Positions 25,835-45,451 of a stretch of DNA of 64,000 nucleotides are shown piece by piece (within the stretch, counting starts at the first letter, position 1; every line of letters begins with the position of its first letter). The stretch lies in the NCBI RefSeq assembly GCF_000831385.1, contig NZ_AP014548.1, positions 2,037,779-2,101,778 on the forward strand. Direction: 5' to 3'. This stretch comes from Nonlabens marinus S1-08 (GTDB lineage Bacteria; Bacteroidota; Bacteroidia; Flavobacteriales; Flavobacteriaceae). The position numbers and the translations under genes were made by a program. The notes under the pieces were generated by a model. It saw nothing but the letters and a program-made list of their open reading frames with translations. It was not told the DNA's origin and did no database searches.

Positions 25835-25850
25835 TTACTTCCCGATGCAA
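25835..25850. repeat. Left attachment site, 16-bp direct repeat
   Basis: TTACTTCCCGATGCAA, identical to 45436-45451. Confidence 0.85.
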
Positions 25851-25963: not shown

Positions 25964-25998
25964 TTATTTGTATCAAAGATAACATATTTCAAGAGGTG

Positions 25999-26029: not shown

Positions 26030-26051
26030 CTTTCAACACAATATACAAGCA

Positions 26052-28865: not shown

Positions 28866-30101
28866 TTATTTCTCTTTGTTCTTTAATAAAGGATTTGCGC
28901 TTAATATTTCATTGGTTCTTTTCATATCAATAAATACGCTGTTGCCGTGCATAATGAACTTTTTTAATAGATCTTCTGATACTTTAAGGGTTTCGAGTAA
29001 TAGATAACCTATTACAAAATCGAATAGAAAGCTTATGTAGAGTAATTCATATTCACTGTATACATTCTTGTTGGCAATATTGCTATGAACGTGATAATCT
29101 CTTGAACGTACTACTTTACTTGGAAATGATTTCCACTCATCATCAGTGAATTTACCGATTAATACAAATGCTATTTTGTAGTGTTTAATGAACTTTGACA
29201 GGTTATTTGATTTATGTCCTGCATATAACTTCCCAAAAGCTTCAAAAGATGCTATACTATTAGTAAATCTCTTGTTATGGCTTGTATGGGTAGCTATGAA
29301 GTTTTCCATCAACTTGTCCAGGCAGAATTGAAAAGAATTATTAGTATATACTGCGTACAGCACTTTATCTAAATCAACTTTTACTTTCTCATAATCTGTA
29401 TGTACATAAGTATGTGTGGACTTCGTTAATTTTTTATCATTATAATAAACCTGCTGCCATTCTCCACAGGAAAGACATTTAAAACTGAACCTTTCAAATT
29501 TGGCTGACCGCCCAAAGAGTAGTTGTAGCATTTTTTGAAATTGATCATAAATTCTAATCGCTTCCAAAATATCGACAGGCTCATCTTTTTTAAACAGAAT
29601 TGAACCACGATTTTTAATGTGTAATTCTGTTCTTTCAGAATGAAAATTCAAATAATGACTTATTGTTATTTCTAAACCGATATTATCAATTGTATATAGA
29701 TCATCAAATTTTTTATAAAGTAGTTTATCATCCAAATGGTCATACCACGTATAATGATTTACCCATTTTACTATTGCATCATTTATAACAGAAAATTCAG
29801 AGACTTTTGTATTTAAAGCATCTACGAAATGATCTGCACTTACAAAGGAATATTTAGGACGATATATTCTTGTCTCGACCATTCCAGATGATGAATGCTG
29901 AATGTGACAGTCAATAAAAGTTATATAACCTAAACTGGTAAAAACGCCTAAAATTTGTGGTTGCTTATAAACTGTTCTTGGTGCACAAAGATTAGTTTCC
30001 AACATTAAATCGTCATCTTTATAAAAAAGCACAGCAAATTGCTTGTTGCTTTCTTCGCCAGCAAACCATACTTCCCCATAATATTTTTGATCCTTGTTCA
30101 T
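28866..30101 (-). CDS. ApeA-like HEPN protein, probable anti-phage ribonuclease
   Basis: 411 residues, last gene of the defence-type operon. The N-terminal beta-rich region (about 1-200: GEVWFAGEESNKQFAVLFYKDDDLMLETNL) resembles the ApeA N-terminal domain. A single CxxC (FKCLSCGEW) lies near 215. The helical C-terminus carries the HEPN motif R334-x4-H339 (VRSRDYHVHSN). HEPN proteins of this kind act as ribonucleases, and ApeA was described as a one-gene abortive anti-phage system. The start ATG overlaps the stop of the upstream gene by four bases, so translation is coupled. The ApeA assignment is by resemblance; the HEPN motif is seen directly. Confidence 0.6.
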   Translation of the reverse strand: MNKDQKYYGEVWFAGEESNKQFAVLFYKDDDLMLETNLCAPRTVYKQPQILGVFTSLGYITFIDCHIQHSSSGMVETRIYRPKYSFVSADHFVDALNTKVSEFSVINDAIVKWVNHYTWYDHLDDKLLYKKFDDLYTIDNIGLEITISHYLNFHSERTELHIKNRGSILFKKDEPVDILEAIRIYDQFQKMLQLLFGRSAKFERFSFKCLSCGEWQQVYYNDKKLTKSTHTYVHTDYEKVKVDLDKVLYAVYTNNSFQFCLDKLMENFIATHTSHNKRFTNSIASFEAFGKLYAGHKSNNLSKFIKHYKIAFVLIGKFTDDEWKSFPSKVVRSRDYHVHSNIANKNVYSEYELLYISFLFDFVIGYLLLETLKVSEDLLKKFIMHGNSVFIDMKRTNEILSANPLLKNKEK

Positions 30102-30817
30102 TCTACAGGATGTTTACCAATTTTATAAAGTAATGAAGCAATGTTTTTTGAAAGGCTTTGTAAAAATGCCTTATCTGTAAATTTTAATATGTAACGTTGT
30201 GGCTTGCTCAAGTCAGTAAGTTGATTAGTTTTATGTTCAAGTTCAAACCCTTTTTGCTCAAATGCCTTGATTTCCTTAAAATCCCTATGTGTACTCATTA
30301 ATTCTCCATTGTGATGAACTAATATATTTCGAGTTTTTCGTAAGCGTTGTATATAGCTCCATTCTGGATCTAAATCTCTAACAGCTATACCCATTGAGCG
30401 TGACATAAATAATTTTGCTTTATCCATATCACTACTACCTTTAAGGTCGCTCATTTTATAGGCCGTGTTTTTTTGACGTGCATAGTTATCACATCCATAT
30501 TTCAATTTATATTCAAGGAATGAGTAAAGTTGAATGACGATTGATTGCCTAAAAAATTGTTTGAAGTGATTGTCAATCTGCCACATATCGTCTATTAAAC
30601 TCGATGTTAAGTGGTCGTGATATTCTGGTGGGGCATCAATTTGACCTGCTTCTATATCCTTTTGTAATTGATGAAACTTATCTTCAAGTGATTTGCCTTG
30701 TAGCTCAAATTGACGTTCTTGTTCATCTATGTAATCATCAATTTGCATCATTTCAAAATCTACCCATTGCGGTAGGAAATAATTCATTAGGTCATTTAAT
30801 CTTCTTGATCTTGACAT
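30098..30817 (-). CDS. HEPN-motif protein
   Basis: 239 residues, helical throughout. The diagnostic element is R163-N164-x3-H168 in RKTRNILVHHNGE, which matches the HEPN R-N/D-x3-5-H signature. A coiled-coil-prone segment (IDEQERQFELQGKSLEDKFHQLQKDI) lies near residues 28-60. HEPN domains function as metal-independent ribonucleases, or as tightly bound toxin partners of MNT-type antitoxins; no MNT gene is nearby. It is translationally coupled to the downstream ApeA-like gene (ATGA overlap) and begins 9 bases after the GIY-YIG gene. A heteromeric two-HEPN RNase is possible. Confidence 0.65.
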   Translation of the reverse strand: MSRSRRLNDLMNYFLPQWVDFEMMQIDDYIDEQERQFELQGKSLEDKFHQLQKDIEAGQIDAPPEYHDHLTSSLIDDMWQIDNHFKQFFRQSIVIQLYSFLEYKLKYGCDNYARQKNTAYKMSDLKGSSDMDKAKLFMSRSMGIAVRDLDPEWSYIQRLRKTRNILVHHNGELMSTHRDFKEIKAFEQKGFELEHKTNQLTDLSKPQRYILKFTDKAFLQSLSKNIASLLYKIGKHPVE

Positions 30818-30826
30818 ATAAGAGCA

Positions 30827-31414
30827 TTAATGAGTTTTAAATCTATTGTAGTAGGATAATTTTAGTTGTACCGCAACATATACTTCAAATAGATACAATT
30901 CTGTTGAACCTTTTATTGGAAGCATCGAGACTTGACATTCTTCTCTCAATATCTTTTTAAATGGACCCGAAAATCTATCAAAATCTAATTCCTTTCTTGT
31001 ACCAGTATGCTCAACACCTTCAATCTCATTATGAAACTCTTTTCCCATTGTGTAACTCAATGAAGATGAGAAATGGTTTGATCCCTTTGTATGTTGATGA
31101 ATACGCTTGATAACACCACGTGAAATCCCTGTATAGAAAGGTTCATCGTCGAACCAAAACAGATAAATACCTTTGAAATCTTGGTCTTGCTCTAATTGAG
31201 GAATTAAGGACTTTAAGGAATTGCGAGAGGTTACTTTTCCAACTCCAGTTTTACCAAAGTTCTCATATATGCTTATCACTCTTGACTTATCTGTGAGCGT
31301 GGCGAGCATTGCAGGAAAGCTTTCCGTTATTTTCTTAAATTCCCGAGTTTCATCAGGTAAGAAATTTAATGGCCAATGCTTTTTGAGCTTTATCGTTGGG
31401 TTTATTTTTGACAT
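30827..31414 (-). CDS. GIY-YIG nuclease-family protein
   Basis: 195 residues. The GIY-YIG domain occupies about 75-195: G82-I-Y84 in FKGIYLFWFDDE, then Y94-T-G in FYTGISRGVIKRIHQHTKG with the conserved Arg, HFSSSLSY, and the distal Glu in ELYLFEVYVAVQL followed by YNRFKTH. These are the residues that bind the metal and cut DNA in the family. The N-terminal 70 residues are of unknown type. It lies between the DUF3800 and HEPN genes with gaps of 8-9 bases and is therefore an integral part of the operon. The likely role is a DNA nuclease effector or accessory; the target is not known. Confidence 0.75.
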   Translation of the reverse strand: MSKINPTIKLKKHWPLNFLPDETREFKKITESFPAMLATLTDKSRVISIYENFGKTGVGKVTSRNSLKSLIPQLEQDQDFKGIYLFWFDDEPFYTGISRGVIKRIHQHTKGSNHFSSSLSYTMGKEFHNEIEGVEHTGTRKELDFDRFSGPFKKILREECQVSMLPIKGSTELYLFEVYVAVQLKLSYYNRFKTH

Positions 31415-31422
31415 TGCGAATA

Positions 31423-32490
31423 CTAATCTTTAAAAGCTTGTGGAAAATTTCGAACTAAAAAATCAAGAGGATTAACACCTTCCCCTTTCTCCATCCCTAA
31501 CGCTTCAGGCGAAACATCATCTGTGGGCCAAAGACTTTGTGCATTTGATAATTGGAACAATTTACTTTCTTTGATTTGTTTTGAAAACTTTTCCATTCTA
31601 CCTTCTTCATTATTATAAGCGAATGCCAGGGAACTGGCTATTAAATCAGCACATTGTACACCCATCTCATCTTGAGAGTTCACTAACTCTACAGAAGAAA
31701 TTTGATGAGGAAAACTCATAGTACGATTATCGTAACCTATTTCAATAGTCTTTTCAGTCTTGGGGATTAATTCAAGCGTTTTTTCTATGTATCTATTGTA
31801 ATGTTCAATCTGCTTTGACTGATCAAACCTTACGTCAATTGTATTGCCGATTTGCTTCGCCCATTTATCACAGAGTACCAAAAAAGTTGAAAACGTAACA
31901 TCTATAGAGAATTGATCAACTGCACTCAATACTTCATCAATATGATTTTTACTTTTTAAAACAGGTTCAAGAATTTCCTTTTCATCAATTTGATTATACA
32001 ATTCTTTAGTTATAGTGTAAAAATTATTGATTGATAAAGTGTCCTTATTTCTAATCATCGCAACAAATGCTTCGAGAAATATGTTGAATAAATGTTTATT
32101 CCAATAGAAATTACCAAAGTAGAATATCCAATTTGTATAAGCTATGTGGCGACCGTGAAGGTATAAGTCATATCCATTATGATGAAATACGGTTTCAATA
32201 AGTAGATTAACAATTTGGCCACAAGTAGCAAACTCCTTGTTTGCATAGTATAAGATAATATGATCTTCTTTGATCCAAGGGCTGTTTAAAAAATTTAAAA
32301 TCTTTCTTCTACCATTACCACTATTTTTTAATTGTTTAAAATGGATTTCGCCATCTACATTGAAAAGCGATTTTATTTCATTTTGTGCAGTTGCATCATA
32401 ATTGACAGAAGCTAAAACAAAAACTTTCTGATCTTTATTTAACATATCTTGCCCAGTGTTACCTGCTTCATCAAAGTAAATCTTATTCAT
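31423..32490 (-). CDS. DUF3800 protein (second of two)
   Basis: 355 residues. The family hallmarks are the N-terminal acidic motif YFDEAGNTG (Asp7, Glu8) and the C-terminal QCADLIASSLAFAY, whose Asp would join the same acidic site. The middle region (about 100-240) is a long helical insert. DUF3800 proteins are often found beside mobile DNA and defence genes; their activity is not firmly established, and the two acidic motifs suggest a metal-dependent nuclease-like site. It follows the other DUF3800 gene with a 2-base gap and precedes the GIY-YIG gene by 8 bases. The two DUF3800 proteins are clearly different from each other. Confidence 0.8.
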   Translation of the reverse strand: MNKIYFDEAGNTGQDMLNKDQKVFVLASVNYDATAQNEIKSLFNVDGEIHFKQLKNSGNGRRKILNFLNSPWIKEDHIILYYANKEFATCGQIVNLLIETVFHHNGYDLYLHGRHIAYTNWIFYFGNFYWNKHLFNIFLEAFVAMIRNKDTLSINNFYTITKELYNQIDEKEILEPVLKSKNHIDEVLSAVDQFSIDVTFSTFLVLCDKWAKQIGNTIDVRFDQSKQIEHYNRYIEKTLELIPKTEKTIEIGYDNRTMSFPHQISSVELVNSQDEMGVQCADLIASSLAFAYNNEEGRMEKFSKQIKESKLFQLSNAQSLWPTDDVSPEALGMEKGEGVNPLDFLVRNFPQAFKD

Positions 32491-32492: not shown

Positions 32493-33629
32493 TTAAAACT
32501 TTTCACTCACGTTTATTAACTGTTTAAGCAAAAGAAATTTTTGACTATCCATTAAATGATTATCTACATCAAGTTTCTTTAACTTATTACTTGCCACTTC
32601 CATTTTGCGAAGCATCGGTTTTACGTAATTTAAATAATGATTAAAATATGCACTTATATCATTTTCATCTTTTGCTAACTTGTAGCCACTACGCCCAGCT
32701 GCTGTTACTACCAAAATGCCATCGTATCGCAAATCTCTTATCAAAGTTCTTATTTGTTCAACGGTAATGTTTTTATGAAGCCTTGATAAACTACCTTGAA
32801 TTGAGTGTACATCGACAAATTGATTGGGGTTAATTCTGAAACAGAAATAAAGAAACTTCAATAAATCTACTTTAGGGTCTAATTTAGAATTTTGATTGAT
32901 ATATAGTATTACATCATTAATTACAAACCGTGTGACCAATATAGAGGAACTGTTAGTGGATTTACTTGTAGTAGGTACTTGGTAACGATATGGGAAATAT
33001 TCTGGTGGCGTCATTTTACCTATTAGAACATCAACAATATCCGACGCTTCTTTAACGTAATGTGAATGTGCAAATACTCTTCCCAAAGAACCAGCCACTA
33101 AATCGGCTAACTGAACCAATACTTCATTTTTATCATCAACCATTTTGTAGTTGCTGAACAATGATTGGATACTTAAATTTTTATTCAAATATGAATACAT
33201 TTCTTGCTTGTATTCTTCAGAAATGAGTTCGTCAACATATATCTCAAAATTCTGATAATCTGAAATGATGTTAGAAGCAAATATCTTTTGGAAGTACTTA
33301 TAGAAAACTTCCTTTATTTGTAAACCCGCACTGTCAATTTTGGATTTATCTACGACAACAGTATATATCTTAAAGTCAAGATTATTGCTTAAATATTGCA
33401 GTGCTTTAAGGCGTTTATCAATTTTTTTAACCGCTCTTGATTTAGATCTTATTTTTTGGCCTTGAAAGAAATTCTTGGAAATATAATCTCTTACTTCATA
33501 TGCTTTATTGAGATTACTCTCTGAAACTACAATTGCAGAATACACAAAATGTGAAACTTCGTTTTGTGCCTGTAAGTTCATTGAACTTGTACCGAACTCG
33601 TCGCCGTAGATATATACTTTTTCTTCCAT
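32493..33629 (-). CDS. DUF3800 protein with C-terminal winged-helix-like domain (first of two)
   Basis: 378 residues. DUF3800 motifs: VYIYGDEFGTS (Asp10, Glu11) and VLVQLADLVAGSLGRVF (about 168-184). After the DUF3800 part, residues about 250-310 resemble a small winged helix (VDVHSIQGSLSRLHKNITVEQIRTLIRDLRYDGILVVT), which could bind nucleic acid. It starts 2 bases after the end of the restriction-methylation gene, so the stop and start nearly overlap. The function is unknown, but the domain pairing of an acidic-site protein with a DNA-binding-like domain fits a defence role. Confidence 0.75.
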   Translation of the reverse strand: MEEKVYIYGDEFGTSSMNLQAQNEVSHFVYSAIVVSESNLNKAYEVRDYISKNFFQGQKIRSKSRAVKKIDKRLKALQYLSNNLDFKIYTVVVDKSKIDSAGLQIKEVFYKYFQKIFASNIISDYQNFEIYVDELISEEYKQEMYSYLNKNLSIQSLFSNYKMVDDKNEVLVQLADLVAGSLGRVFAHSHYVKEASDIVDVLIGKMTPPEYFPYRYQVPTTSKSTNSSSILVTRFVINDVILYINQNSKLDPKVDLLKFLYFCFRINPNQFVDVHSIQGSLSRLHKNITVEQIRTLIRDLRYDGILVVTAAGRSGYKLAKDENDISAYFNHYLNYVKPMLRKMEVASNKLKKLDVDNHLMDSQKFLLLKQLINVSEKF

Positions 33630-33631: not shown

Positions 33632-36600
33632 TTAACTATTTTCAACAATTGCAATTTCATCTTCTGTGAGACCATACAACTCATAAACCTTTTGATCAAT
33701 TTCTTTTTCTGTGACGGCTATTTGATCTTGAAGCTCTTGCGCTTTTTTCTTGTTATCTTCAAAGAGTTCCATCCATTCAAACTCATCTTTTTTGGTAAGC
33801 GTAGCGATAGGGTTAAGGCTTTCTTCTGCTCTTAATTTGTTGGTAACTTTTATGGCCTTGTTAAGTTCTTTAATAAATTTCGTAAAATCAAGCTCATACC
33901 AATATTCAAGAATTCTTGTGATTTTTAAAAGGCTGTATTGACCAGAGAAATATGACTTGAAATTTGATTTAAGTTTTGTCAGGCTTGCGTTATACCTGAT
34001 TGTGTTATTAACAGGCTTTGAGAAGTCTATCGCCTTATCAAATTTTATTGGAAAATCTAATATATATGTTCCTTTAAATTGGGCAAATGCTTTGTTTTCA
34101 GCACTTGTCATTGATTTGTGGTAAAACCCAAATAAAGATGAATTAAGTTGTGCCAACAACTGGTCTAATTTATATATCTCATCAGGAATAATCAAATAAG
34201 AGTTTTTCAATACCATCATATTATCTTCGTCCTTGGTAGCAATAATTGACGAGCCCGTACGACGCATAAGTATCTTTGGTTGTAAATACATATCAAGATT
34301 AGCATTACTTTTCATTTCACTTTGTATGAAGTTTACGTACGTTCCTGTATATTCTATGTCATACCTATTAACATCCCTACCTAAAAGTATTGGTAAATGA
34401 TTTTCATCTTTTTTGTCTTCTGATAACCACAATTTATTATTCCGTGTCTCTAAACCACGATAGACAATCGCGTGATCTTTTAATTTTTCAAAACCATTAT
34501 CCAATTTTTCCAATAGAGGATTTGAAGAGTATATAAATGGATTATAGCCACTGGTAAAACGATCTTTTTCGAAAGTTGCAGAACCGTAAATATTCTCTTT
34601 AATATCAGTTGTAAGTTTTATTGTACTTGGAATAGTGTCACTATTTCTTATGTGAATTACTACTGTTTCAACAACTTCATCAAAAGCAGTATTTTTTAAA
34701 TAAACTATTTCTTTAATTAATTTGTTATAAACATCTTGCCGCATTTTGGAAAAATATTGACCGTCCATCCAGCTATTAGGAATAATAAACCCTAAATAAC
34801 CATCGGTTTTTAAAAGAGTATTTAAAGCTAAATCTGTAAATAGGGCATATGTGTTTGGATTATACTCCGCATATTTATAATGCTTGTTTATATAATCTAA
34901 TGTAGGCTGCCCGAAAATAGATTTTATATAAACTACGTAAGGTGGATTACCTATAATCACATCAAAACCACCATTTTCAAACACTTTCGCGAAAGCGGTT
35001 TCCCATTTAAAAGCTTTATCTCCAGCAACACTTTTATTATCTATAAGGCTATTGCCACATTTAATATTACTGCTTAAATCATTGAGTTTACGTCGTGGTT
35101 GTGCGGTGCGCAACCATAAGGATAGCTTTGCTATCTCCACACTCTCTTCATTTAGATCTACACCGTAAATGTTGTTCTCCAATATAGTGTTTTCAATATC
35201 AGGAAATTGTAAACCACCACCTAATACACGTACTTTAAGCTCGTCTATATAATTGTGTTCCTTTATAAGAAAATCAAGTGCCTGGTTTAAGAATGCTCCA
35301 GAACCACAGGCAGGGTCACAAATTGTAATTTGCAGCAACCATTCACGATAGGTGTCGAGAATACTAACTAATTTTTCAATGGTTGTTTTATTACGGTTTT
35401 TACGCCCCTTAAAGTATTGTTCTTCATCAAAACCAAGTTCTTGTTTCTTCTCATCACATAGCTTGCCTACGGTATTTTCTACTATGTATTTGGTAACATA
35501 TTTAGGCGTGTAGAATACACCATCCTTTTTACGCTTACTGGTCTGTTTATCAAAATCGCCACCTTCAATCTCTGCGTTAACGCTCTCGATTTCATTGAGT
35601 GAGTTTTCAAAAATGTGTCCCAGTATATTTACATCTACTTGACTTTCAAAATCGTAATTGGATAATTTAAGTGTGTATTTATATAATAGGTCGTTATCTA
35701 TTTCTAGTGCATCGAGTATGGCATCTGGTTTAAATAAACCACCGTTATAGGCATAGATTTCCGCACGTTTTTCTGTCCCCTTGCGCCCTATATCCAGAAA
35801 GTTGAAATACTGCTTAAAAAGACCATATAATGGACGTTCATCGCCAAAATCCCAATCATCTTTCCATTTGTTTAAGATCTGTAAGGTAGAGTTGGAAGGC
35901 AGTAACATTCTATCTTCCGCAAAGAAGATAAATAGAAAACGATCTATGAGTTTTTGAGATTTTTGAAACAGCGTTAGTTTGACATTTTTCTCTAATCTGG
36001 TTATGTCTTCATCACGTTCAGTTGTGGCGAGCTTATCCTTTACCGTCTTTGAGTTGCGCTTAACCAGATCACGATACAGCTCTCGTTTAAAAATAGAATA
36101 GTCCTTATAGAATGCTTTGGTAATTTCTTCTTCTTCAACAATAGATGCTTCTTTAATCTTTAGCGGTGTATTGTTAAGTACCTTATCCAGATGTAAGCAC
36201 AAATAGAGTAGGTTAAACCGCTTCCGCGAAAGCGTAAACAAATCAAATTCTTCAAACTCTGTAGCATCATTGATGTAAAAGCGCAGCTTTTCAAAGTTGG
36301 ATGTTACTACATACACACAGCCTTTTTGATTAGCCTTATAATCAAATGCCTGCCGCCTAATGCTCTCCAAGTCCTTTGTATTTGTTCCTTTTAACTCTAT
36401 AACTCCTATTGCTGTACCGTCTTTAAGAATTGCGCCATCTGCCTTACGAGCGTTTTTCTCATTCTTAAACTCGGTGGTTAGGTTAGAATTAGGGTTTGGG
36501 AATAGTGTATAGCCCAGAATATTTACAAACAATTCGTTTAGAAACGTTGCTTGATACTGTTCTTCCTTTGCACTTTTAATATTCTCCTGTATCGTCGTAT

Positions 36601-36700
36601 TCCAGAAGTACTTTTGATATTTTTTATATGCTTTATCTACCGCTGCTTCATTAAGCAAAGCGAGATGTGATTTAAGTACAGATGTTTGAAATAATGCCAT
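33632..36700 (-). CDS. Type IIG (Eco57I-like) restriction enzyme and N6-adenine methylase
   Basis: 1022 residues in one chain. The N-terminal nuclease of the PD-(D/E)XK type has D88 in ARKADGAILKDG and E102-L-K104 in VIELKGTNT. The central methylase shows ICDPACGSGAF (AdoMet motif I, Asp about 459) and FDVIIGNPPYV (motif IV, Asn about 584). The C-terminal 250 residues look like a TaqI-like target-recognition domain with terminal helices. It should methylate adenine at, and cut near, one recognition site; the site cannot be predicted here. The gene begins 29 bases after the HTH-Argonaute gene. Two degenerate palindrome copies occur within it (34982-34998 and 36219-36234). Confidence 0.92.
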   Translation of the reverse strand: MALFQTSVLKSHLALLNEAAVDKAYKKYQKYFWNTTIQENIKSAKEEQYQATFLNELFVNILGYTLFPNPNSNLTTEFKNEKNARKADGAILKDGTAIGVIELKGTNTKDLESIRRQAFDYKANQKGCVYVVTSNFEKLRFYINDATEFEEFDLFTLSRKRFNLLYLCLHLDKVLNNTPLKIKEASIVEEEEITKAFYKDYSIFKRELYRDLVKRNSKTVKDKLATTERDEDITRLEKNVKLTLFQKSQKLIDRFLFIFFAEDRMLLPSNSTLQILNKWKDDWDFGDERPLYGLFKQYFNFLDIGRKGTEKRAEIYAYNGGLFKPDAILDALEIDNDLLYKYTLKLSNYDFESQVDVNILGHIFENSLNEIESVNAEIEGGDFDKQTSKRKKDGVFYTPKYVTKYIVENTVGKLCDEKKQELGFDEEQYFKGRKNRNKTTIEKLVSILDTYREWLLQITICDPACGSGAFLNQALDFLIKEHNYIDELKVRVLGGGLQFPDIENTILENNIYGVDLNEESVEIAKLSLWLRTAQPRRKLNDLSSNIKCGNSLIDNKSVAGDKAFKWETAFAKVFENGGFDVIIGNPPYVVYIKSIFGQPTLDYINKHYKYAEYNPNTYALFTDLALNTLLKTDGYLGFIIPNSWMDGQYFSKMRQDVYNKLIKEIVYLKNTAFDEVVETVVIHIRNSDTIPSTIKLTTDIKENIYGSATFEKDRFTSGYNPFIYSSNPLLEKLDNGFEKLKDHAIVYRGLETRNNKLWLSEDKKDENHLPILLGRDVNRYDIEYTGTYVNFIQSEMKSNANLDMYLQPKILMRRTGSSIIATKDEDNMMVLKNSYLIIPDEIYKLDQLLAQLNSSLFGFYHKSMTSAENKAFAQFKGTYILDFPIKFDKAIDFSKPVNNTIRYNASLTKLKSNFKSYFSGQYSLLKITRILEYWYELDFTKFIKELNKAIKVTNKLRAEESLNPIATLTKKDEFEWMELFEDNKKKAQELQDQIAVTEKEIDQKVYELYGLTEDEIAIVENS
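34982..34998. repeat. Degenerate palindrome copy in the restriction-methylation gene
   Basis: Core CTTTCGCGAAAG with one arm altered; read as ETAFAKVF. Confidence 0.6.
36219..36234. repeat. Degenerate palindrome copy in the restriction-methylation gene
   Basis: CGCTTCCGCGAAAGCG, the same single-base variant as in pta; read as TLSRKRF. Confidence 0.65.
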
Positions 36701-36729: not shown

Positions 36730-39078
36730 TTATAAAAACCATAATTTTTCCTTGCCATAAGGTGGCATATCCTTGCCAAAATGAGGTGCTATTTCAGCCA
36801 CCATTTCAGGATATTTGATAGTAACCGGAACATTTTGCTGTCGCAAAGATTTCCAGTATAAACGGCTAAATTGATACACTTGCTCAATGAGCTTTCTAAT
36901 CATTGCCGTGTCATTCATTGCCTTTTCATCTGGACTTGTAATGCGAAGCTTTACAGGAAAGGGGTAACCTTCATAATGTGGATATTTCTCTACTCCTGGA
37001 TAACGGGCATTATTGAAAAGAAGGTATTTATACTCTTTTTTTGCAATCTTGATGAATGTACCGCTTTTAGGCATTAATTTTCCTTGCCAATTTTCATCAA
37101 AAGCGATCAAATCTTCAGATTTGGTTTTATTGATATTAACGATGTATAAAGGACATTCCATTTTAAGCATATTCATCATCTTGAGAATAGGCTTTAGTTC
37201 CTTGTCGTTCATTTCTTTGTAAAAATGTATGACTACCTTATCAGGATTGTTTTCAACCTTTACAAATTTATCTATGGCATCACTTATAGCTCCTGCCAAT
37301 TGTGCTGTGTCAGATTTTGCAGAATACTCAAACCCATTAAATTTTCCATTGTTTTGAAAACTAAAGGCACTGGCCACATATTGAACATCTTCTCTCACGT
37401 TTTTAAATGCACCTACACCTATTACCAATTCTCGTTTAGGTTGTACAGTAAGTTGCCAAGGTATGCCGTCGAGCTTTGCGAGTAGTGCTAATGAAATGTT
37501 AGTCAACTCGTACACAAAATTATCAATCTTACTTTCCAGCTTTTTATAGTCTATCACTTGTGAAATGATACGGCGTTGTAAGAGTTCTTTCTTTACTTGG
37601 TAATAAACTTCACGCTTTGCGAGATTAGGCTCAAATTTGCTAAATGGACTTAAATAAATTGCCGCATACGTAATCTCGGGATCAAGATCAAGGTTTTTAA
37701 TGCCGTTTGATATTTCGGGCATAGGGTTATCCAAATCTTTAAAAACTATACTAAAGCCTTTTTCTACGTGATACAGAATACCTGTAAAGTCCAGCAAACC
37801 CTTAAACCAGCTGTGTTGTTTATTGAGATAGCTTTCAAGCTTTACGGCTTCTTCTGCAAAGCTTTCGTGTAGAATGAAGAACAAATGAATGTTTTTATAA
37901 GGGGTAGATTTATATGGTTTGTACTTTTTAAAGTCAAATTTAGGAACACGCCCAATACCATTTTTAAATTGTAGATCGTTACACTCATCACTTACATATC
38001 CTACTGAACTGCTATCTACTGGAAGGAAATCTTCATTATTGATGGGAACTTCTTTTTTGAAATCTTCTTTAAAGACATATTTACTACACAGGAAATCAAT
38101 TTTTTCCTTGAACTCTATGTATTTGTTCTCTGGCTTGAACACTTCTGCTTCAAAACCCAATTCACTATTTAACTCTGCATTTAATATGGCATAGGATTTT
38201 GTATAGTCGATATCATCTTCATCCCTTATATATTCATATTTGTGATATGTGGCGTTGTGAATTATTCCGCTGAAATTCTTGGCAGACACTTTTTTGACCA
38301 ATTCCGAAACAGGTTCTTTAATTATCTTGCTCTTTCCATCATAAGCAATTATTAATTCTCCATAATCACTCAACTCTTTAAATTGAAATTTGAATGTGAA
38401 CTTGTCATAGCGCGCAAACGTTGGATTAGAGTAATCTCGATCTCGTAGCCACAGTTGGTTATCCTTGACAAAATTTCTTTTAACCACCTTACCCTTTTTT
38501 CTAAAGAAACGCTTGATAGTGAAGTTATAGTAGTCCTTTAAAAAGTCAGAATTCTGGTCTTTTAGAACAATGTCAAGAGCTTTATAGTTATCATCTGGAA
38601 AGTAAAAAGAAGTGTAAATCGTGTCGGTTCCATCAGTGGTGATACCAGGGAATATATCTTCGATATTTGAAGGGAACTTATTGCGGAAAAGTTTACGATT
38701 ACGATCGTGTTTCTCTTTCGAAAAATACATCGTAATAGGCCCTGTTGGCACATCAAAGGTCAGCGCATTATAGAATAAACTTTCTGTCATTGATTTAAGG
38801 TTTTTTGCTTTTTCCTTGGCGTAATTTAGAATTTTTAGACCATCCTGTTCATCACTTATTGTATTGAATATTTTGTCTGCCATCCAAAGCATTAATAATT
38901 CATTTTCATCCTGTTCCAGTGCTTTAGCGAAAGCAATAACCTGCTCTTTACGAGCTTCACGATTACCGCGTTCTATTTTACTTAAATAAGCCACATCCAT
39001 ATCCACCGCTGCCGCAAGCTGTCGTAAAAGCAACTGCTTTTCTTCACGTATATTTCTGATGTGTGTTCCAAAATCCAT
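36730..39078 (-). CDS. XRE helix-turn-helix fused to a MID-PIWI Argonaute
   Basis: 782 residues, first gene of the operon. Residues 1-65 form a complete XRE domain (IRNIREEKQLLLRQLAAAV ... YLSKIERGNREA) of the kind that regulates restriction genes. Residues 65-400 are of unknown fold. About 400-525 is MID-like, with Y493, K496-K497 and Q507 in YYQVKKELLQRRIISQVI. From about 530 the PIWI region is clear: SLALLAKLDGIPWQL, LVIGVGAF, VVIHFYKEM, MPKSGTFIKI, then YWKSLRQQNVPVTIKYPEM. The first catalytic Asp of PIWI is replaced by Gly (G556) and the second block reads H618-F-Y-K621, so slicing is predicted lost. The guide-binding site seems kept. It may pair guide recognition with effector nucleases encoded downstream. 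Confidence 0.85.
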   Translation of the reverse strand: MDFGTHIRNIREEKQLLLRQLAAAVDMDVAYLSKIERGNREARKEQVIAFAKALEQDENELLMLWMADKIFNTISDEQDGLKILNYAKEKAKNLKSMTESLFYNALTFDVPTGPITMYFSKEKHDRNRKLFRNKFPSNIEDIFPGITTDGTDTIYTSFYFPDDNYKALDIVLKDQNSDFLKDYYNFTIKRFFRKKGKVVKRNFVKDNQLWLRDRDYSNPTFARYDKFTFKFQFKELSDYGELIIAYDGKSKIIKEPVSELVKKVSAKNFSGIIHNATYHKYEYIRDEDDIDYTKSYAILNAELNSELGFEAEVFKPENKYIEFKEKIDFLCSKYVFKEDFKKEVPINNEDFLPVDSSSVGYVSDECNDLQFKNGIGRVPKFDFKKYKPYKSTPYKNIHLFFILHESFAEEAVKLESYLNKQHSWFKGLLDFTGILYHVEKGFSIVFKDLDNPMPEISNGIKNLDLDPEITYAAIYLSPFSKFEPNLAKREVYYQVKKELLQRRIISQVIDYKKLESKIDNFVYELTNISLALLAKLDGIPWQLTVQPKRELVIGVGAFKNVREDVQYVASAFSFQNNGKFNGFEYSAKSDTAQLAGAISDAIDKFVKVENNPDKVVIHFYKEMNDKELKPILKMMNMLKMECPLYIVNINKTKSEDLIAFDENWQGKLMPKSGTFIKIAKKEYKYLLFNNARYPGVEKYPHYEGYPFPVKLRITSPDEKAMNDTAMIRKLIEQVYQFSRLYWKSLRQQNVPVTIKYPEMVAEIAPHFGKDMPPYGKEKLWFL
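38921..38934. repeat. Strongly degenerate palindrome copy
   Basis: GCTTTAGCGAAAGC inside the HTH region of the Argonaute gene (IAFAKALEQ); may be coincidental. Confidence 0.3.
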
Positions 39079-39089: not shown

Positions 39090-39120
39090 TTTAGACTTGT
39101 CAATATTTGTCAAATCTAAA
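39090..39120. promoter_or_regulatory. Imperfect palindrome upstream of HTH-Argonaute, candidate operator
   Basis: Arms TTTAGACTTGTCAA (39090-39103) and, inverted, TTTAGATTTGACAA (39120-39107), 12 of 14 matching, separated by 3 bases, 11 bp upstream of the ATG. It is well placed as a binding site for the XRE domain encoded by the first gene, as in C-protein control of restriction genes. Confidence 0.6.
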
Positions 39121-39295: not shown

Positions 39296-41032
39296 CTAAT
39301 CGTCAGGAATTAGATATTGACCGTGGCTCTCACGATGTATGATACCATCTTTTACAAACTTGGTTATATAACCTTCTGCCGTCTTGTGCGGAATGCCGTT
39401 GGCGTCAGCAATTTCGAGATATTTGGTGCGGTCAAACTTTTTAGGCAAACCTTGTAAGAAACGTTCCTTTTTATTGGGTCTGCGCTTTTTTGCTGGTTCA
39501 GTAGGTAAATCATTGAATACTGCACTACTGTGTTGTACCAAGACCGTAATAATCTTTAAACAATTCTCAAAATCTGCATCTTCACATTCCTTTACCGTAT
39601 TTACGTCGCCATCTTCCATTGTACGTAAGGCTGTAAAAATCATTGCCATTCTAAATGCCACCAATCCCAATCTTCGTACGGTTGCAATGTATTCCATAGG
39701 CTGTAAGCTGATATACTTTGCTTGCATTTTTGAGAAATACTCATTAAAGCGCTGTTGCTGCTTCCGCGAAAGCGTAACCCTTATTTCAGGATTGTTTTTG
39801 AGTGTCTTGTACAAACCCAAAAACTGATTTCCTAAATTTGTGTAATGCTCTTCTAAACCTACCTTACTATGTGTTGCAAATACATCTTTCCATTCAGGTT
39901 TAATATTCATATAGTAGAATACAAAGCGGCTGAATAAGCCGTTTTCTGCATTGGGAACCAATAAAGCAATCTGCTTGGGCGTACCTGATAAGAGCGTTGA
40001 TAAACACGGTTTTTCAATGTCTACAAGTTCTCGATCTGTCCTGCGGTAGTAACTGATGTTCTCGTGATGAAATGCCTTTCGGAAACCATCGCTATAATTG
40101 CCGTAATCAGATTTGAATGCTTGAGTAAGTGTATCGCCTTCGGTTTCAAACATTAATCCGCGACCTTCATTATCTGAAATCAACTGATATACTCCTGTTG
40201 TGCTATTGTTGGCAGGAATAAACAGCATCCTTTCAGGTGGTTTAATAGGCTTTTCCAAATTGTCACTTTTATTTTTGTTCATATTATAAGTTGCCATTTC
40301 CGCTTCGTGCTGTTGCTTTAAGGATTTCGACTGTTCCCTAAACATTTTATGAATAGGCATTACCAACTTTTTAAGTTGGTTGAGCTTGCCTTTTCCTGCC
40401 GAAGCTGCGGCCGTTACAAACAGGTACAAGTTTGCATAGACTTTGCGCTCATCATAAAATCCGTAAAGATTAGGAAAGCAGGCACTTAATACAGTCAATG
40501 CACCTAATAATAAAATATCACGTTCTTCTGGACTGCTTGCAGGCTGTGTCACGGCTTTAAGAAATTCAGGTACTGTGTCGTGTACCGCTTGCGGTATCAC
40601 GGGCATCATCGCAATTGTAGGTTCATCTAACTTTTCTGAAGGAATGCTGTTCTTGCTTTTTGCAAGCTTAATACCAGCTTTGTGAGCGTGATGATAGAAG
40701 GTTGCAATATTAATACCGTGTCCAGATGCTGAAAGGCATTTGGTAAATTGGTCGTCGCATTCCTTGTGATCGTAATCTGAAAAGTTGCGGCTTACACGAT
40801 GGTACATATCTCTGCCTTGCTCGCCGTATTCAGATGCCAATGCAAAACCTATATTTCGCCAGGTTGCATAGTCGCCTGTAATGTCTATTCCAGACTGTTC
40901 AATGCTCGAAATATAGCTTTCAATATCATTATTTGTAACTGCTGTAGGCACAGGTTGCTGAACGATGGGTTCTATGGGTGGTGCTTGCTTTGCAGGCTTA
41001 TCCAGCCATTCTAAAGGATTAAAATTCTTCAT
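39296..41032 (-). CDS. PriCT-2/DUF3987 primase-helicase-type protein
   Basis: 578 residues. Residues about 35-115 look like a PriCT-2 primase C-terminal domain (WRNIGFALASEYGEQGRDMYHRVS ... HECDDQFTKCL). The following 400 residues fit DUF3987, with a P-loop-like VTAAASAGKGKLNQL and downstream LFETEGDTLTQAF. The last 60 residues may be a winged helix (YLEIADANGIPHKTAEGYITKFVKDGI). Proteins of this type are common in Bacteroidetes integrative elements and are thought to help replication or mobilisation. The start overlaps the stop of the upstream BT4734-like gene by four bases. A degenerate palindrome copy (39759-39776) lies in it, read as TLSRKQ. Confidence 0.8.
   Translation of the reverse strand: MKNFNPLEWLDKPAKQAPPIEPIVQQPVPTAVTNNDIESYISSIEQSGIDITGDYATWRNIGFALASEYGEQGRDMYHRVSRNFSDYDHKECDDQFTKCLSASGHGINIATFYHHAHKAGIKLAKSKNSIPSEKLDEPTIAMMPVIPQAVHDTVPEFLKAVTQPASSPEERDILLLGALTVLSACFPNLYGFYDERKVYANLYLFVTAAASAGKGKLNQLKKLVMPIHKMFREQSKSLKQQHEAEMATYNMNKNKSDNLEKPIKPPERMLFIPANNSTTGVYQLISDNEGRGLMFETEGDTLTQAFKSDYGNYSDGFRKAFHHENISYYRRTDRELVDIEKPCLSTLLSGTPKQIALLVPNAENGLFSRFVFYYMNIKPEWKDVFATHSKVGLEEHYTNLGNQFLGLYKTLKNNPEIRVTLSRKQQQRFNEYFSKMQAKYISLQPMEYIATVRRLGLVAFRMAMIFTALRTMEDGDVNTVKECEDADFENCLKIITVLVQHSSAVFNDLPTEPAKKRRPNKKERFLQGLPKKFDRTKYLEIADANGIPHKTAEGYITKFVKDGIIHRESHGQYLIPDD
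39759..39776. repeat. Degenerate palindrome copy in the DUF3987 gene
   Basis: TGCTTCCGCGAAAGCGTA, one arm base changed as in pta and the restriction gene. Confidence 0.6.
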
Positions 41033-41937
41033 AGTGCTCTATGTCTTTTATGAAGAAATGCATTAGGGTCGTGGCATAAAAAACAAGCCCGGGAAATATC
41101 CTTACCAGATGCATCTACTTCTATGTTGTATGTATGTTGTAAATAATTTGTAATTGCCTGAAAATACTGTGCGTGTGTTGCCTGTTCAAGATCAACGCGA
41201 ACAACCCATTTAAGGCCATCGCCCGATGGGGATGCAAATAAAAGTTCTGTGTCAAATGCTTTGTCGGCTAATAATAACTGCCTTGTTTTTTCCAAGTTGT
41301 CCAGATGGTCGAAGTCAATCGTGATGAGGTTAGAATGCTTAACCAGATTGTTGTCGTTTCTCCTTTCAAAAACTCCCGAAAATGTGACGTAATCCAAATT
41401 GTTTGCTTTGAATTTACGTTTGGTTTTAGGGTCTGTTATTGCTCTTAATTCAGTAGTCACACTTTTATACTTTTCACTTGTGATAAGCTTGTGTATATTA
41501 TGTAACCGTAGCGTTTCCGAAGGAAATACGTTACGGATAGGTGCTTTAAAAAAACTTATATCTGTGTACCAAGTATCATCTTCATCATTGAGCCACGCAA
41601 GTGGATCTTCATCATCTTTTACTTGGATATTAAGATGCAAAGCATCGCAAATACGTATCAGTAAATCATCTTCATTTTCAGTTTTAAAATACTTTGCCGC
41701 AAATTCAAAAACATCTCCCTTAAAAGTGGGAATTTCTATATCTGAATGTATTGCTACACCAGCTTGAATGCAAACTGAAAGCGTTTCCTTATCGTCATTA
41801 AAAGGATTTCTCGTTATCCCGCAATCCCTTCCCGAAAGGGAAAGGACGGTTGTGCCGGGATAGTACTGTCGTATCACATAGGCGTAAATATTTAGCCCGT
41901 AATGTGTCTTATCTAAAATTGCAGCTCTACTTACCAT
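41029..41937 (-). CDS. BT4734-like (VirE N-terminal type) replication protein
   Basis: The frame opens at 42042, but ATG 41937 (MVSRAAILDK) is preferred because it lies at the end of the upstream HTH gene with a short overlap; that gives 302 residues. The conserved block is FKANNLDYVTFSGVFERR, HSNLITIDFDHL, then ASPSGDGLKWVVRV and GKDISRACFLCHDPNAF. It is an archaeo-eukaryotic primase-like region with the acidic pair in ITIDFD, as found in Bacteroidetes conjugative and integrative elements. It works next to, and is translationally coupled to, the DUF3987 gene. The probable role is priming or replication of the excised element. Confidence 0.78.
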   Translation of the reverse strand: MVSRAAILDKTHYGLNIYAYVIRQYYPGTTVLSLSGRDCGITRNPFNDDKETLSVCIQAGVAIHSDIEIPTFKGDVFEFAAKYFKTENEDDLLIRICDALHLNIQVKDDEDPLAWLNDEDDTWYTDISFFKAPIRNVFPSETLRLHNIHKLITSEKYKSVTTELRAITDPKTKRKFKANNLDYVTFSGVFERRNDNNLVKHSNLITIDFDHLDNLEKTRQLLLADKAFDTELLFASPSGDGLKWVVRVDLEQATHAQYFQAITNYLQHTYNIEVDASGKDISRACFLCHDPNAFLHKRHRAL

Positions 41938-42220
41938 CTGTCTTGAAATTATGGTTATAGTAATTGCTTTTAAACAGATCTTCAATATCAGATACCTTAT
42001 AGTAGAATTTTCCAGATACTTTGCTGTAAGGCAATGTGCCATTGCTCCTAAAGGTCTGTAGGGTTCGCTTACTAATGTGAAGCATTTGCATCACATCCTG
42101 ATTATCTACCCAACTGTCTTTTAAGACTTCTGCTCTCGATTGTCTTATGAGTTGGATATATATTTTCAGTTCCTTGATTTGTTCAGAGAGCGCAAGGATT
42201 AATGGGATTAAATCGTTCAT
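41927..42220 (-). CDS. Excisionase-type HTH protein
   Basis: 97 residues. The HTH_17/MerR-like DNA-binding domain is DNQDVMQMLHISKRTLQTFRSNGTLPYSKVSGKFYYKVSDIEDLF (residues 39-83), preceded by a short helix (LILALSEQIKELKIYIQLI). Such small proteins act as excisionases or as element-specific regulators. It overlaps the upstream HTH gene by four bases and the downstream replication gene by 11 bases. It is therefore part of one operon of two HTH genes plus the two primase-type genes. Confidence 0.8.
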   Translation of the reverse strand: MNDLIPLILALSEQIKELKIYIQLIRQSRAEVLKDSWVDNQDVMQMLHISKRTLQTFRSNGTLPYSKVSGKFYYKVSDIEDLFKSNYYNHNFKTDGK

Positions 42221-42519
42221 AGCTGTACCCTTCCTTTATTGATTAGGTAATCGGCAGCTTGCTGTTCGATCTCGTCCTGCGTGTCCATACGGTTGCGTAG
42301 CAACCATTGGTCAAGTTCTTCCCTGTGGAAATAGATTTTCTTTCCGTTGGGTTTGTAATGTGGTATGGCTCCTGTACTCGTTAGTTTGTACAGATGCGAT
42401 TGAGATAGTTCTAAAAAAGCACAAGTCTCGTTAAAATTCAATACCGTTTTTTGCAACGCCTGTTGCTGTTGCAGCATCTTTTCGATGCGGTCTAATTGTT
42501 CAATAATGTTATCGTCCAT
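42217..42519 (-). CDS. Excisionase-type HTH protein
   Basis: 100 residues. An N-terminal coiled-coil-prone stretch (EQLDRIEKMLQQQQALQ) is followed by an HTH_17 domain (LNFNETCAFLELSQSHLYKLTSTGAIPHYKPNGKKIYFHREELDQWL). It is the first gene of the four-gene operon that continues into the primase-type genes. Paralogous in general type, but not in detail, to the next HTH gene. The likely role is excision or regulation of the element. The repeats at 42631-42710 upstream could be its operator. Confidence 0.8.
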   Translation of the reverse strand: MDDNIIEQLDRIEKMLQQQQALQKTVLNFNETCAFLELSQSHLYKLTSTGAIPHYKPNGKKIYFHREELDQWLLRNRMDTQDEIEQQAADYLINKGRVQL

Positions 42520-42730: not shown

Positions 42731-43744
42731 TTAGCTTATTTGGTCAAGCCAAGGATGTTTGATGAGCAACTGATTGTACTTTGGTCGTTTTGAACCTTCA
42801 AAGTTTCGGTATTCCTTATCTGCATAACTACCTGGACCATATCTGTGAGCGAAGAACTTTATGATGTGCTTTCTTTCAATCTTTTTTGGTGGTTTCCCAT
42901 CGGGAAAAACACGTTCATTGAAGTACCCTTTTTCAAATAATGTGAGAAAAAAGGCAGCTATTACCTGTTTGTTGCCACGTTTGTTATTGAATGAATACTT
43001 GTTATCAATAAGATTTTCTTCCACCAATCTTTCTTCAAGACGAGCAAAAGCGTCAGCTTTTGAGGATTTGACCAGCTCTGCATAAGTCAAGATTTTATCA
43101 TTAGGTATTCTAAAGTCAAGGTCTGCTTTAATCGCGTTGAATTTACCACCTACATTTATAGATGGTTTTGGTTTGCTGATAGGTTTACCACTAAATTCAA
43201 CTACGTACAAGTCATTAGGTGGTAACTCCTGAAAATATACTTCGTGAATTTCTTCTTGAGTAAGTAATGGTTCATCACTATTGTATGAAAATCTATGCTG
43301 CAATTCTAAAAACAATAAAATTGCATTTGCTTTCAAATAAAATATAGCGTGTACGTGGTCTGCATCAGCAGATGCACCCGGAACAGTAAAAGCTTTTTCC
43401 TGCATTTCATTATTCTGGATATACTGCTGTATGTTTAATAGATAACTTATAAATCTATTATGCCATTTTTGATATAGAAACTGTAGATGTTCTTCTGTTG
43501 AGGTTCTATCAAGTTCTGCTATCATTTCATTAAAATGAAGCGCTGTCTCTTTATCAATGAGCTTTTCGTAATACTTGAGCTTTGGTGAAAATGCTTTTTT
43601 AGGAAAGCGGATTTCTTGGGTAGGCGTTGTTTCCTTGTACTCTTTATCAAGTTTTGGAAGTAGCTCTTTAAATTTTAATTCGCTACGTTGGTCTTTTAAA
43701 TAAGTATCAACATAAAGTATATCAGAAAATAAATCTTTGCTCAT
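42731..43744 (-). CDS. Hypothetical integrase-associated protein
   Basis: 337 residues, helical, without signal peptide. It starts where the integrase stops (one-base overlap, TAATG). Parts that stand out are a long helical first half (WHNRFISYLLNIQQYIQNN ... KANAILLFLELQHRF) and a C-terminal segment (SFNNKRGNKQVIAAFFLTLFEKGYF ... KRPKYNQLLIKHPWLDQI). The translational coupling to the integrase suggests it belongs to the recombination or regulation module. I do not recognise the family and cannot offer a catalytic function. Confidence 0.6.
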   Translation of the reverse strand: MSKDLFSDILYVDTYLKDQRSELKFKELLPKLDKEYKETTPTQEIRFPKKAFSPKLKYYEKLIDKETALHFNEMIAELDRTSTEEHLQFLYQKWHNRFISYLLNIQQYIQNNEMQEKAFTVPGASADADHVHAIFYLKANAILLFLELQHRFSYNSDEPLLTQEEIHEVYFQELPPNDLYVVEFSGKPISKPKPSINVGGKFNAIKADLDFRIPNDKILTYAELVKSSKADAFARLEERLVEENLIDNKYSFNNKRGNKQVIAAFFLTLFEKGYFNERVFPDGKPPKKIERKHIIKFFAHRYGPGSYADKEYRNFEGSKRPKYNQLLIKHPWLDQIS

Positions 43745-44838
43745 TATAAATCAAGTTGAATACGGTTAGAAGCTTCACGTTTTTTGTCATCTATTACTTT
43801 TGCATAAATCTGTGTGGTACGCAATTCTTTGTGACCTAATAATTTTGATACTGTATAAATATCAGTTCCCAAAGTTAGCTGAAGCGTAGCGTAAGTGTGC
43901 CTTGCGCAGTGAAAAGTGATTGTTTTAGAAATTCCAGCCTTCATCATCCATTGCTGTAACTTAAGATTTGTCCAGGCGCTATAATGTAATCCTTGAAAAA
44001 CTTTATCTGTTGGGTCTTTTCGGTCGCCCAATAATTGAACAGCTTGTTCTGGAATAGGTAGGGTTTCAGCTCCTTTAGTTTTCTTTTGTCTAAATCTAAT
44101 GTAGTAACCGTTTTCTTTAGAGTGCTGTAATTCTGACCAAACCATTTTCTCTATATCAGACCATCGCAAGCCGGTAAGGGCAGAAAATATAAAGGCTTTC
44201 TTTAGTTCTGGTAATTCACATTCTGTATTAACAGCTTGCTGTAATTCAGATAATGTAAGAAACTCGCGTTGTGGTTCGCCTTGTTTAAAATGGTCAACAC
44301 CTGCTGCTGGATTTACTCTTAATATACCATCTTTCACAGCTTGCTTAAGAGCTGCTGTGAATTTACCGTAATATGAATATTTAGAATTTTGAGATAATGA
44401 CTTGTTCGCTCTACCAATTGCAGTCTTATCGAGGTATTCTTTAAACCGTTCTACAAATTGTTTATCAACCTGGTCGAAACTTATGTCAGTTGTTTGAAAT
44501 GCCTTTAGATGTTTCAACATACTGTACCAATTGCCGTGATTACCTTTACTGGTATTTTTCTTTTCTGCAAGTGCGGTCACATAAGCAATAAAACTTCCCT
44601 TTAATTTCTCAATATCCTGAAATCCGTAGTGTCCGTTTTGTATCTCGATTTGTCGCTGTGCACAAATAGTCGTTGCCAGTTCTTTAGTCTTTTTATTGAG
44701 ATCTTTCTCTGCTTTGCTTTTAGCGTTTAGAGATAGATACAATTTTAGATACTCTGTTTTTCTTTTGCCCTTATGGTAGTAATCAAGGTACAAAGCTATT
44801 TTTCCGTTTTTCTTGCGCTCGCGTAGTGTGACTTTCAT
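43744..44838 (-). CDS. Tyrosine-type site-specific integrase
   Basis: The start at ATG 44838 (MKVTLRERKKNGKI) is typical of the Bacteroidetes family; a TTG further upstream would add 14 residues across the preceding gene. 364 residues: an arm-binding domain (1-80), a SAM-like core-binding domain (about 95-190) and the catalytic domain. Catalytic residues are visible: Arg in TGLRWSDIEK, Lys in RQKKTKGAETLPIP, the His-x-x-Arg in FHCARHTYATL, His in LLGHKELRTT and Tyr in QIYAKV. It should catalyse insertion into, and excision from, the 3' end of mnmE, whose copy lies about 600 bp away. It overlaps neither the upstream nor the downstream gene apart from one base. Confidence 0.92.
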   Translation of the reverse strand: MKVTLRERKKNGKIALYLDYYHKGKRKTEYLKLYLSLNAKSKAEKDLNKKTKELATTICAQRQIEIQNGHYGFQDIEKLKGSFIAYVTALAEKKNTSKGNHGNWYSMLKHLKAFQTTDISFDQVDKQFVERFKEYLDKTAIGRANKSLSQNSKYSYYGKFTAALKQAVKDGILRVNPAAGVDHFKQGEPQREFLTLSELQQAVNTECELPELKKAFIFSALTGLRWSDIEKMVWSELQHSKENGYYIRFRQKKTKGAETLPIPEQAVQLLGDRKDPTDKVFQGLHYSAWTNLKLQQWMMKAGISKTITFHCARHTYATLQLTLGTDIYTVSKLLGHKELRTTQIYAKVIDDKKREASNRIQLDL

Positions 44839-44845
44839 AAGGCTA

Positions 44846-45217
44846 TTAATTAAAGAGGTTTTCAATCTGGTATCGTGCAACTATATGTTTTCGTCCAAAG
44901 GGAACTGCCTTTAGCTGTCCGCGCTTAATCATACGTTGTATGGTCCATCTACTTACACCTATTAATTGTGATGCTTCGGTTACACTTAAAAAATCTTTGT
45001 TGGCAATATTAGTAGATGAGGTTTCAACTGCCTGTGGGGTAGTAGTCTGTTGCTTGTGAGTTTCTCGTAAAGCTTGCTTTACTTTTTCTTCTCTCTTAAT
45101 CTGTTTGTAGTGCCTGCTGTTGCATTTATGCGAACAGTAACGCGTAACTGTGGTACGTGCGGTAAATAGATTTCCACAGTATTCGCAGGTTTTTGGGATG
45201 TGTAGATTGGTACTCAT
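44846..45217 (-). CDS. HTH protein with N-terminal zinc-ribbon
   Basis: 123 residues, translated just upstream of the integrase (7-base gap). The N-terminus has two Cys pairs (CEYCGNLF and YCSHKCNSRHY), as in small zinc-ribbons. The C-terminus carries an HTH_17 excisionase-type domain (SVTEASQLIGVSRWTIQRMIKRGQLKAVPFGRKHIV). A Gln/Thr-rich linker joins them. Position and domain fit a regulator or directionality factor of the integrase. Confidence 0.82.
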   Translation of the reverse strand: MSTNLHIPKTCEYCGNLFTARTTVTRYCSHKCNSRHYKQIKREEKVKQALRETHKQQTTTPQAVETSSTNIANKDFLSVTEASQLIGVSRWTIQRMIKRGQLKAVPFGRKHIVARYQIENLFN

Positions 45218-45435: not shown

Positions 45436-45451
45436 TTACTTCCCGATGCAA
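45436..45451. repeat. Right attachment site inside the end of mnmE
   Basis: TTACTTCCCGATGCAA. On the minus strand it encodes the C-terminal Cys-Ile-Gly-Lys and the TAA stop of mnmE. Confidence 0.85.

Follow-up and report, generated by a model that had tools for sequence, protein, structure and literature searches.

A fused XRE regulator-Argonaute gene in Nonlabens marinus as a possible core module of mnmE-site mobile elements

The gene described here lies on the minus strand of a 64,000-nucleotide stretch of the Nonlabens marinus S1-08 genome (hereafter the window), and its parts, together with the inverted repeat ahead of it, are as follows; here and below, some open reading frame (ORF) starts are automatic first-start calls.

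36730..39078 (-): fused XRE helix-turn-helix (HTH)/long Argonaute gene, 782 aa
38902..39060 (-): XRE helix-turn-helix, residues 7-59 (PF01381)
36730..38790 (-): Argonaute part, residues 97-782, from alignment, junction and fold
39090..39120 (-): 31-bp imperfect inverted repeat just ahead of the gene's start, TTTAGATTTG-N11-CAAGTCTAAA, the presumed HTH operator

A first-pass annotation of this DNA had read the frame as a genuine single chain joining an XRE regulator to an Argonaute, and this is borne out. The profile search places PF01381 at residues 7-59 (Pfam, E 8.8e-9), the PADLOC Control_protein model matches the same HTH (E 1.1e-6) and C.AhdI is a weak PDB match to it (E 0.039). For the Argonaute part, a check for an RNase-H-like PIWI/Argonaute fold returned a full-length Argonaute fold with RsAgo as the top match, at 12% identity over aligned residues; EcAgo is a weak sequence match (2.2e-7). 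An assembly error joining unrelated genes is ruled out as the source of the fusion, as the identical frame is present in a second genome, that of Nonlabens spongiae. This relative (P0001, 97%) is the only one of 26 homologues to carry the HTH, and it is again the only cluster with PF01381 among the 120 listed, of 200 found, in a protein-cluster survey. Gene maps were drawn for 44 loci (the window and 43 relatives, picked by match strength; the partial or weak Argonaute matches of G381, G158, G230, G415, G303, G171 and G340, and most weak matches from a phylum-wide sample, lie outside the maps), and in these XRE is fused to the Argonaute in 2, separate in 33 and absent from the fetched stretch in 9. 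The HTH-PIWI architecture, which the annotation had proposed to look for across genomes, was thus recovered in the second Nonlabens genome and otherwise in none of the 44 loci or 120 listed clusters; in this Argonaute family the architecture is not widespread, and the fusion is local to Nonlabens.

Met97 of the fused protein aligns with the start codon of unfused Argonautes, and a free Argonaute could be made from it. Where XRE and Argonaute genes directly adjoin (seven loci), the gap between them is 5-20 bp, and at Met97 of the fused gene a TGA stop in the +1 frame overlaps the ATG. Such a coupled XRE/Argonaute pair would become a fusion through a shift of a single base, a history that we infer from the junction. 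Separately, between the two Nonlabens copies (window and L011) the HTH part (38791-39078) looks as if it had been exchanged or recombined, because its dS of 0.97 (83% identical) lies far above the 0.175 of the Argonaute part.

The PIWI had been predicted to be dead, with Gly at the first catalytic Asp and His618 in the second block, and the same state is found throughout the family. In an alignment of 123 rows (the window plus 122 of 124 family proteins, those 600-800 aa long), Gly takes the place of the first catalytic Asp in 122 rows and Ala in one, His618 is invariant (123/123), and the C-terminal WFL is present in 122. The proposed MID pattern stood in part: Y492 is kept in 122 rows and K496, Q507 and K535 in all 123, while K497 is variable. 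These positions were mapped by correspondence with AfAgo, in which the Y-K-Q-K residues form the MID pocket for the guide 5' end. Because the pocket residues are conserved and the first Asp column holds Gly or Ala, guide binding has probably been retained, and slicing probably lost, across the whole family. By its PIWI without the first catalytic Asp, its MID pocket and its full-length fold, the gene would be classed as long-B-type.

The surroundings of the gene are bounded by two identical repeats, and upstream of it (as well as at the far end) lie the following features.

45436..45451 (-): attachment repeat formed by the final 16 nt of mnmE
44846..45217 (-): HTH_17 protein, excisionase-like, backbone
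43744..44880 (-): tyrosine integrase (PF00589, PF13102; phrog_1)
42731..43744 (-): DUF6617 protein, backbone
41927..42519 (-): pair of small HTH genes resembling excisionases, backbone
41029..42042 (-): BT4734-like/VirE-N primase-type protein, backbone (PF08800; primase PHROGs)
39296..41032 (-): PriCT_2 + DUF3987 putative replication helicase, backbone
26052..26693 (-): DUF6266 protein, final backbone gene ahead of the far attachment repeat
25835..25850 (-): far-end attachment repeat, with the same 16 nt

Judged by the integrase and the flanking repeats, the locus is an integrative mobile element at the 3' end of mnmE. The 16-nt repeat has two exact copies only in the whole genome. DUF6266 is present in all 14 elements for which mnmE and far-end sequence are both at hand (L115, L120 and L112 show mnmE without far-end sequence and stand outside the 14), and in 11 of these the mnmE core recurs 175-206 bp past the DUF6266 stop with 0-2 mismatches; L089 has 3 mismatches at an equal distance, L099 has 4, and in L087 no core was found there. 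The border argument rests on the constant distance, because 3-mismatch matches arise elsewhere too. Seven further elements have no mnmE in view, and DUF6266 was found in five of them and not in L075 or L086. Five complete elements share integrase, DUF6617, the HTH genes, VirE-N, DUF3987, Argonaute and DUF6266; inspection of their listed ORFs by eye recognised neither genes for transfer (a relaxase, type IV secretion) nor genes for phage packaging, and DUF6266, DUF6617 and a 230-aa ORF gave no PHROG match. Between the two Nonlabens genomes, the 3' part of host mnmE is 72% identical with dS saturated, as against 83-98% for the element genes, which points to transfer of the element between Nonlabens hosts. 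No empty mnmE site was found in Nonlabens; in the two further genomes that contain a single exact copy of the repeat, the site is occupied by other islands. SGI1 and similar genomic islands at the 3' end of trmE/mnmE occur in other bacteria; the integration site is of like kind, and the excerpts at hand mention no Argonaute in them.

Several smaller observations concern these islands. L149 (G004:C4:831000-850900) is an mnmE-site island that carries an integrase, an XRE gene ahead of restriction-like genes (by eye), and DUF6266, and from which DUF3987 and Argonaute are both absent. ORF-poor stretches of about 1-2 kb lie between cargo and DUF6266, at 27782-28865 of the window and at about 32.3-34.1 kb of the joined L100 and L136; an origin, transfer site or small RNA may lie there. 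Against Rfam the element gave a sub-threshold match alone, to the Bacteroides sRNA BTnc231 (window 25861-26034, immediately inward of the far attachment repeat; 26.7 bits against a cut-off of 80.4, E 0.072). In the element of L087 a DUF6943 gene (L125:16518-17081) lies shortly ahead of DUF6266, with a relative at 37110-37550 of L123, and DUF6943 is possibly a further gene near the far end of the element.

As we read the sequences, the Argonaute is part of the element backbone and not cargo. The Argonaute family is present in 40, and DUF3987 in 52, of the 397 Flavobacteriaceae genomes sampled. Where DUF3987 scores at least 880 bits (a limit chosen after seeing the gap in scores, 886 to 802), an Argonaute of more than 200 bits lies no more than 30 kb away in 35 of 36 places, and the sole exception, G286, meets a contig edge after three further genes. 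At 700-880 bits an Argonaute is nearby in one of seven places (G230 adds a partial Argonaute on another contig), and with weaker DUF3987 it is nearby in none (0/2 at 600-700 bits, 0/4 at 500-600, 0/7 below). From the other side, every Argonaute of at least 700 bits has DUF3987 within 30 kb (35/35), falling to one of four at 200-700 bits and none of four under 200 bits, some of these being on broken contigs. The count includes G257 and G112, which are not in the gene maps, and leaves out one weak row, the second G072 piece (65 bits). In a sample of the phylum, 22 of 395 genomes have an Argonaute match, many of them weak, and DUF3987 is in view in four of the eight loci mapped from it (L078, L079, L080 and L081).

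Pairwise distances of the Argonaute correlate with those of DUF3987 (0.75, n=38), integrase (0.75, n=23), DUF6617 (0.96, n=23) and XRE (0.64, n=37); because they also track cargo (HEPN-like 0.55, n=14; type IIG 0.84, n=7) and host mnmE (0.96, n=13), part of this co-inheritance is shared ancestry. Between the two fused Nonlabens copies the Argonaute part has a dN/dS of 0.036. Cargo genes are constrained too (0.045-0.074, with one DUF3800 gene at 0.347), so purifying selection is not peculiar to the Argonaute. Two genomes, G270 (C19, C5) and G185 (C8, C3), each hold two diverged Argonaute-bearing elements, and for this reason strict mutual exclusion between such elements is unlikely. In L072 (G072:C1) the Argonaute is broken by one TAG and three TAA in frame, and the rest of the backbone is present. 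Beyond the islands, a close full-length relative on plasmids was rejected, as the eight matching plasmid records cover only 10-37% of the query (21-49% identity); viral contigs gave one relative, L124, beside genes that are phage-like by eye, and a scan of genome contigs confirmed no relative.

With regard to the XRE part, 30 of 41 loci (related loci, not 30 independent cases) have the palindrome half-site TGACAAGTC ending 12-15 bp ahead of the start of XRE, and shuffled sequences give a mean of 0.01 loci. Over 242 divergent pairs, the 22 columns left of the motif have an identity of 0.83, vs 0.58 upstream and 0.51 downstream; the pairs are anchored on the motif, which is identical by construction, and it is the arm and flanks that are informative. 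A single-strand fold of the palindrome restates the inverted repeat. The half-site is retained ahead of the fused gene, and the HTH part probably regulates the operon which the fused gene opens, in support of that part of the annotation. Because XRE is also present in the Argonaute-less G006 and G004 loci, it seems to act as a regulator of cargo operons by itself. A role for XRE in governing the entire element is not supported: of 16 stretches of 19-50 kb that were searched, 4 lack the exact 10-mer and 12 contain it a single time, these 12 being among the loci in which the motif precedes XRE. The G006 locus (L107, G006:C8) holds a 460-aa XRE right behind DUF3987, joined to a part resembling adenine-specific DNA methyltransferases (by eye), which gives a further type of XRE fusion in this slot. 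Restriction-modification controller (C) proteins are small XRE regulators with a palindrome just ahead of their own start. The small XRE HTH and the palindrome upstream of its own gene are both found here, and some elements have restriction genes behind XRE; unlike the C proteins, which are free-standing and activate a restriction gene, the XRE here is fused to an Argonaute, and in relatives it occupies a mobile-element slot with varied cargo, often preceding non-restriction genes.

Behind the fused gene, the window carries the following cargo.

33632..36700 (-): type IIG restriction-modification enzyme
32493..33629 (-): DUF3800 protein
31423..32490 (-): DUF3800 protein
30827..31414 (-): GIY-YIG match just below the Pfam cut-off (22.2 vs 22.6 bits)
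30098..30817 (-): possible HEPN protein, weak sub-threshold match
28866..30101 (-): ApeA-type HEPN protein (PF18862, PF18739)

Over the 44 mapped loci the neighbours of XRE and Argonaute vary widely, with cargo lying either between the two or behind the Argonaute: type IIG enzymes in 7 loci, ApeA in 5, HEPN-like proteins in 13, RND transporters in 15 and HlyD-type partners in 17, as well as methyltransferase- and type I restriction-like genes (by eye). The commonest cargo seen is a copper/heavy-metal efflux block (L068, L070-L072, L080 and, in part, L087-L103), the metal label resting on resemblance to the gene block that follows the Argonaute in L123, L101 and L100 and being Pfam-checked for L087. 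In L087, a DUF6660 and an RND efflux gene come next after the Argonaute, where the window has the type IIG enzyme. The 18 L087 ORFs of at least 70 aa up to DUF6266 match, in Pfam, RND efflux, HlyD, OEP, FUR, MerT/HMA, multicopper oxidase, P-type ATPase, cation efflux, haem-binding, DUF6660, DUF3347, DUF305, DUF6943 and DUF6266 (one is unmatched), with no nuclease domain among the 18, ORFs of 649 and 81 aa being left out. A constant effector partner was rejected, as no non-backbone cluster occurs in more than 20 of the 44 loci, and a constant downstream effector of the BPAN/BPAS/BPAM type (RecB2-type nuclease, SIR2 or membrane protein) was not seen in them. As such, the restriction, ApeA/HEPN and metal genes look like exchangeable cargo. 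A partner of the Argonaute could be a host effector, or an element gene such as DUF6266, DUF6943 or DUF6617.

The annotation was aware of no described system with both this fusion and these partners; HTH-long-B Argonaute fusions as such are already in print: the part of PMC6299218 (2018) at hand reports a lambda-repressor-type HTH (PF01381) at the N-terminus of several long-B Argonautes, seven long Argonautes with Schlafen or lambda-repressor-like domains, and RND transporters, their role unexplained, in 14% of long-B operons, with no defined operon composition. The gene examined here is alike in its N-terminal PF01381 on a long-B Argonaute, and the mobile element offers an explanation for the lack of a fixed operon in that group. 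The accessible portion of PMC10620215 (2023) describes long-B Argonautes with an og_54 (VirE-N) gene, usually second to eighth upstream, whose function it leaves to future studies; the present family shares the slicing-dead long Argonaute and the upstream VirE-N gene and is probably, we infer, this og_54 subclade, whereas the VirE-N gene is placed here in the backbone of an Argonaute-bearing mnmE-site element. DUF3987 is given as a probable helicase of mobile elements in the available part of PMC5862659, which describes no Argonaute-bearing element of the present kind, and in the open-access literature searched, no title or abstract opening describes an mnmE-site element whose backbone includes an Argonaute. 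The BPAN, BPAS and BPAM systems (long-B Argonaute with nuclease, SIR2 or membrane protein), of which EcAgo is the weak match noted above, likewise contain a dead long-B Argonaute, but the Argonaute here has no constant adjacent effector gene over 44 loci. RsAgo is slicing-dead, is not known to have a dedicated effector, and resembles the Argonaute part as a full-length Argonaute, though it has no HTH.

We consider it moderately probable that the gene is a fusion of what is otherwise a core module of two genes in mobile elements, XRE plus slicing-dead long-B-type Argonaute, and that the module serves the element; element borders, backbone membership, one-frame fusion, intact pocket, lost catalytic residue and operator-like palindrome are the portions read from sequence. 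Many elements of this family integrate at the mnmE 3' end in Flavobacteriaceae, and the XRE part would repress its own promoter. The Argonaute would load short guides, presumably RNA by analogy with RsAgo, bind matching DNA without cutting it and benefit the element, most likely by keeping rival plasmids, phages or elements silent, with no dedicated nuclease effector among the element's genes. The Nonlabens fusion tethers the Argonaute to its own regulator.

In the model of the annotation, foreign nucleic acid would be sensed by the Argonaute, which would in turn license, via the HTH or by contact, the nucleases of its operon (type IIG, GIY-YIG, HEPN/ApeA). Gene spacing at the Nonlabens locus is tight, defence-type genes often lie between XRE and Argonaute (IIG in 7, HEPN-like in 13 of 44 loci), and other long-B Argonautes act with partner effectors in the portion of PMC10620215 at hand. 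However, the neighbours change from element to element while the backbone is constant, L087 has no nuclease domain behind its Argonaute, and in L088, L091, L092, L098 and L104 related IIG enzymes stand upstream, not downstream, of the Argonaute; the variable neighbours and L087 argue against a fixed partnership with the nucleases of the window. Type IIG enzymes and ApeA are, moreover, self-sufficient systems. We therefore regard licensing as unsupported and improbable, although some coupling of Argonaute and defence is possible, since defence genes are frequent between XRE and Argonaute.

The main rival to the silencing of competitors is a function in replicating the element itself or in its copy number, exercised alongside the VirE-N/DUF3987 proteins after the manner of TtAgo, which helps complete chromosome replication (PMC10269773, in part). 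Linkage to one DUF3987 clade is near-perfect, and DUF3987 and Argonaute are jointly absent from the G004 island. More distant DUF3987 elements nevertheless do without an Argonaute, and TtAgo is an active Argonaute while the PIWI here is slicing-dead, such that we hold this role to be unlikely, if a shade less so than licensing. That the Argonaute is neutral ancestral cargo hitchhiking with one element clade would agree with its restriction mostly to that DUF3987 clade, with distances that follow host mnmE and with the one broken copy in G072 (1 TAG, 3 TAA), but a dN/dS of 0.036 and pocket residues kept in 122-123 of 123 rows while neighbours changed speak against it, and we give it very little credence. 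Extending the preferred element-serving module, the Nonlabens Argonaute could be the sensor half of a repressor, target recognition altering HTH binding at 39090-39120 and so switching the defence operon, restriction enzyme included, on or off, with the Argonaute more widely an element-serving core gene in competition between elements; taken whole, this is a speculative and improbable extension.

Were the element-serving module correct, the Argonaute would be the component kept by the element while surrounding genes change, and its status as a core gene in a mobile island may explain the orphan Argonaute group, which would become a testable case of an Argonaute working for, not against, a mobile element. 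The VirE-N gene reported near long-B Argonautes (PMC10620215, portion at hand) would then belong to the replication module of a mobile element. Likewise, the RND transporters of long-B operons (PMC6299218, in part) would be the element's metal-resistance cargo, and such cargo may explain these genes for the Argonaute group considered here. This case would include both a natural minimal version (XRE and Argonaute, with no nuclease partner found) and a natural fusion of the Argonaute to its own regulator.
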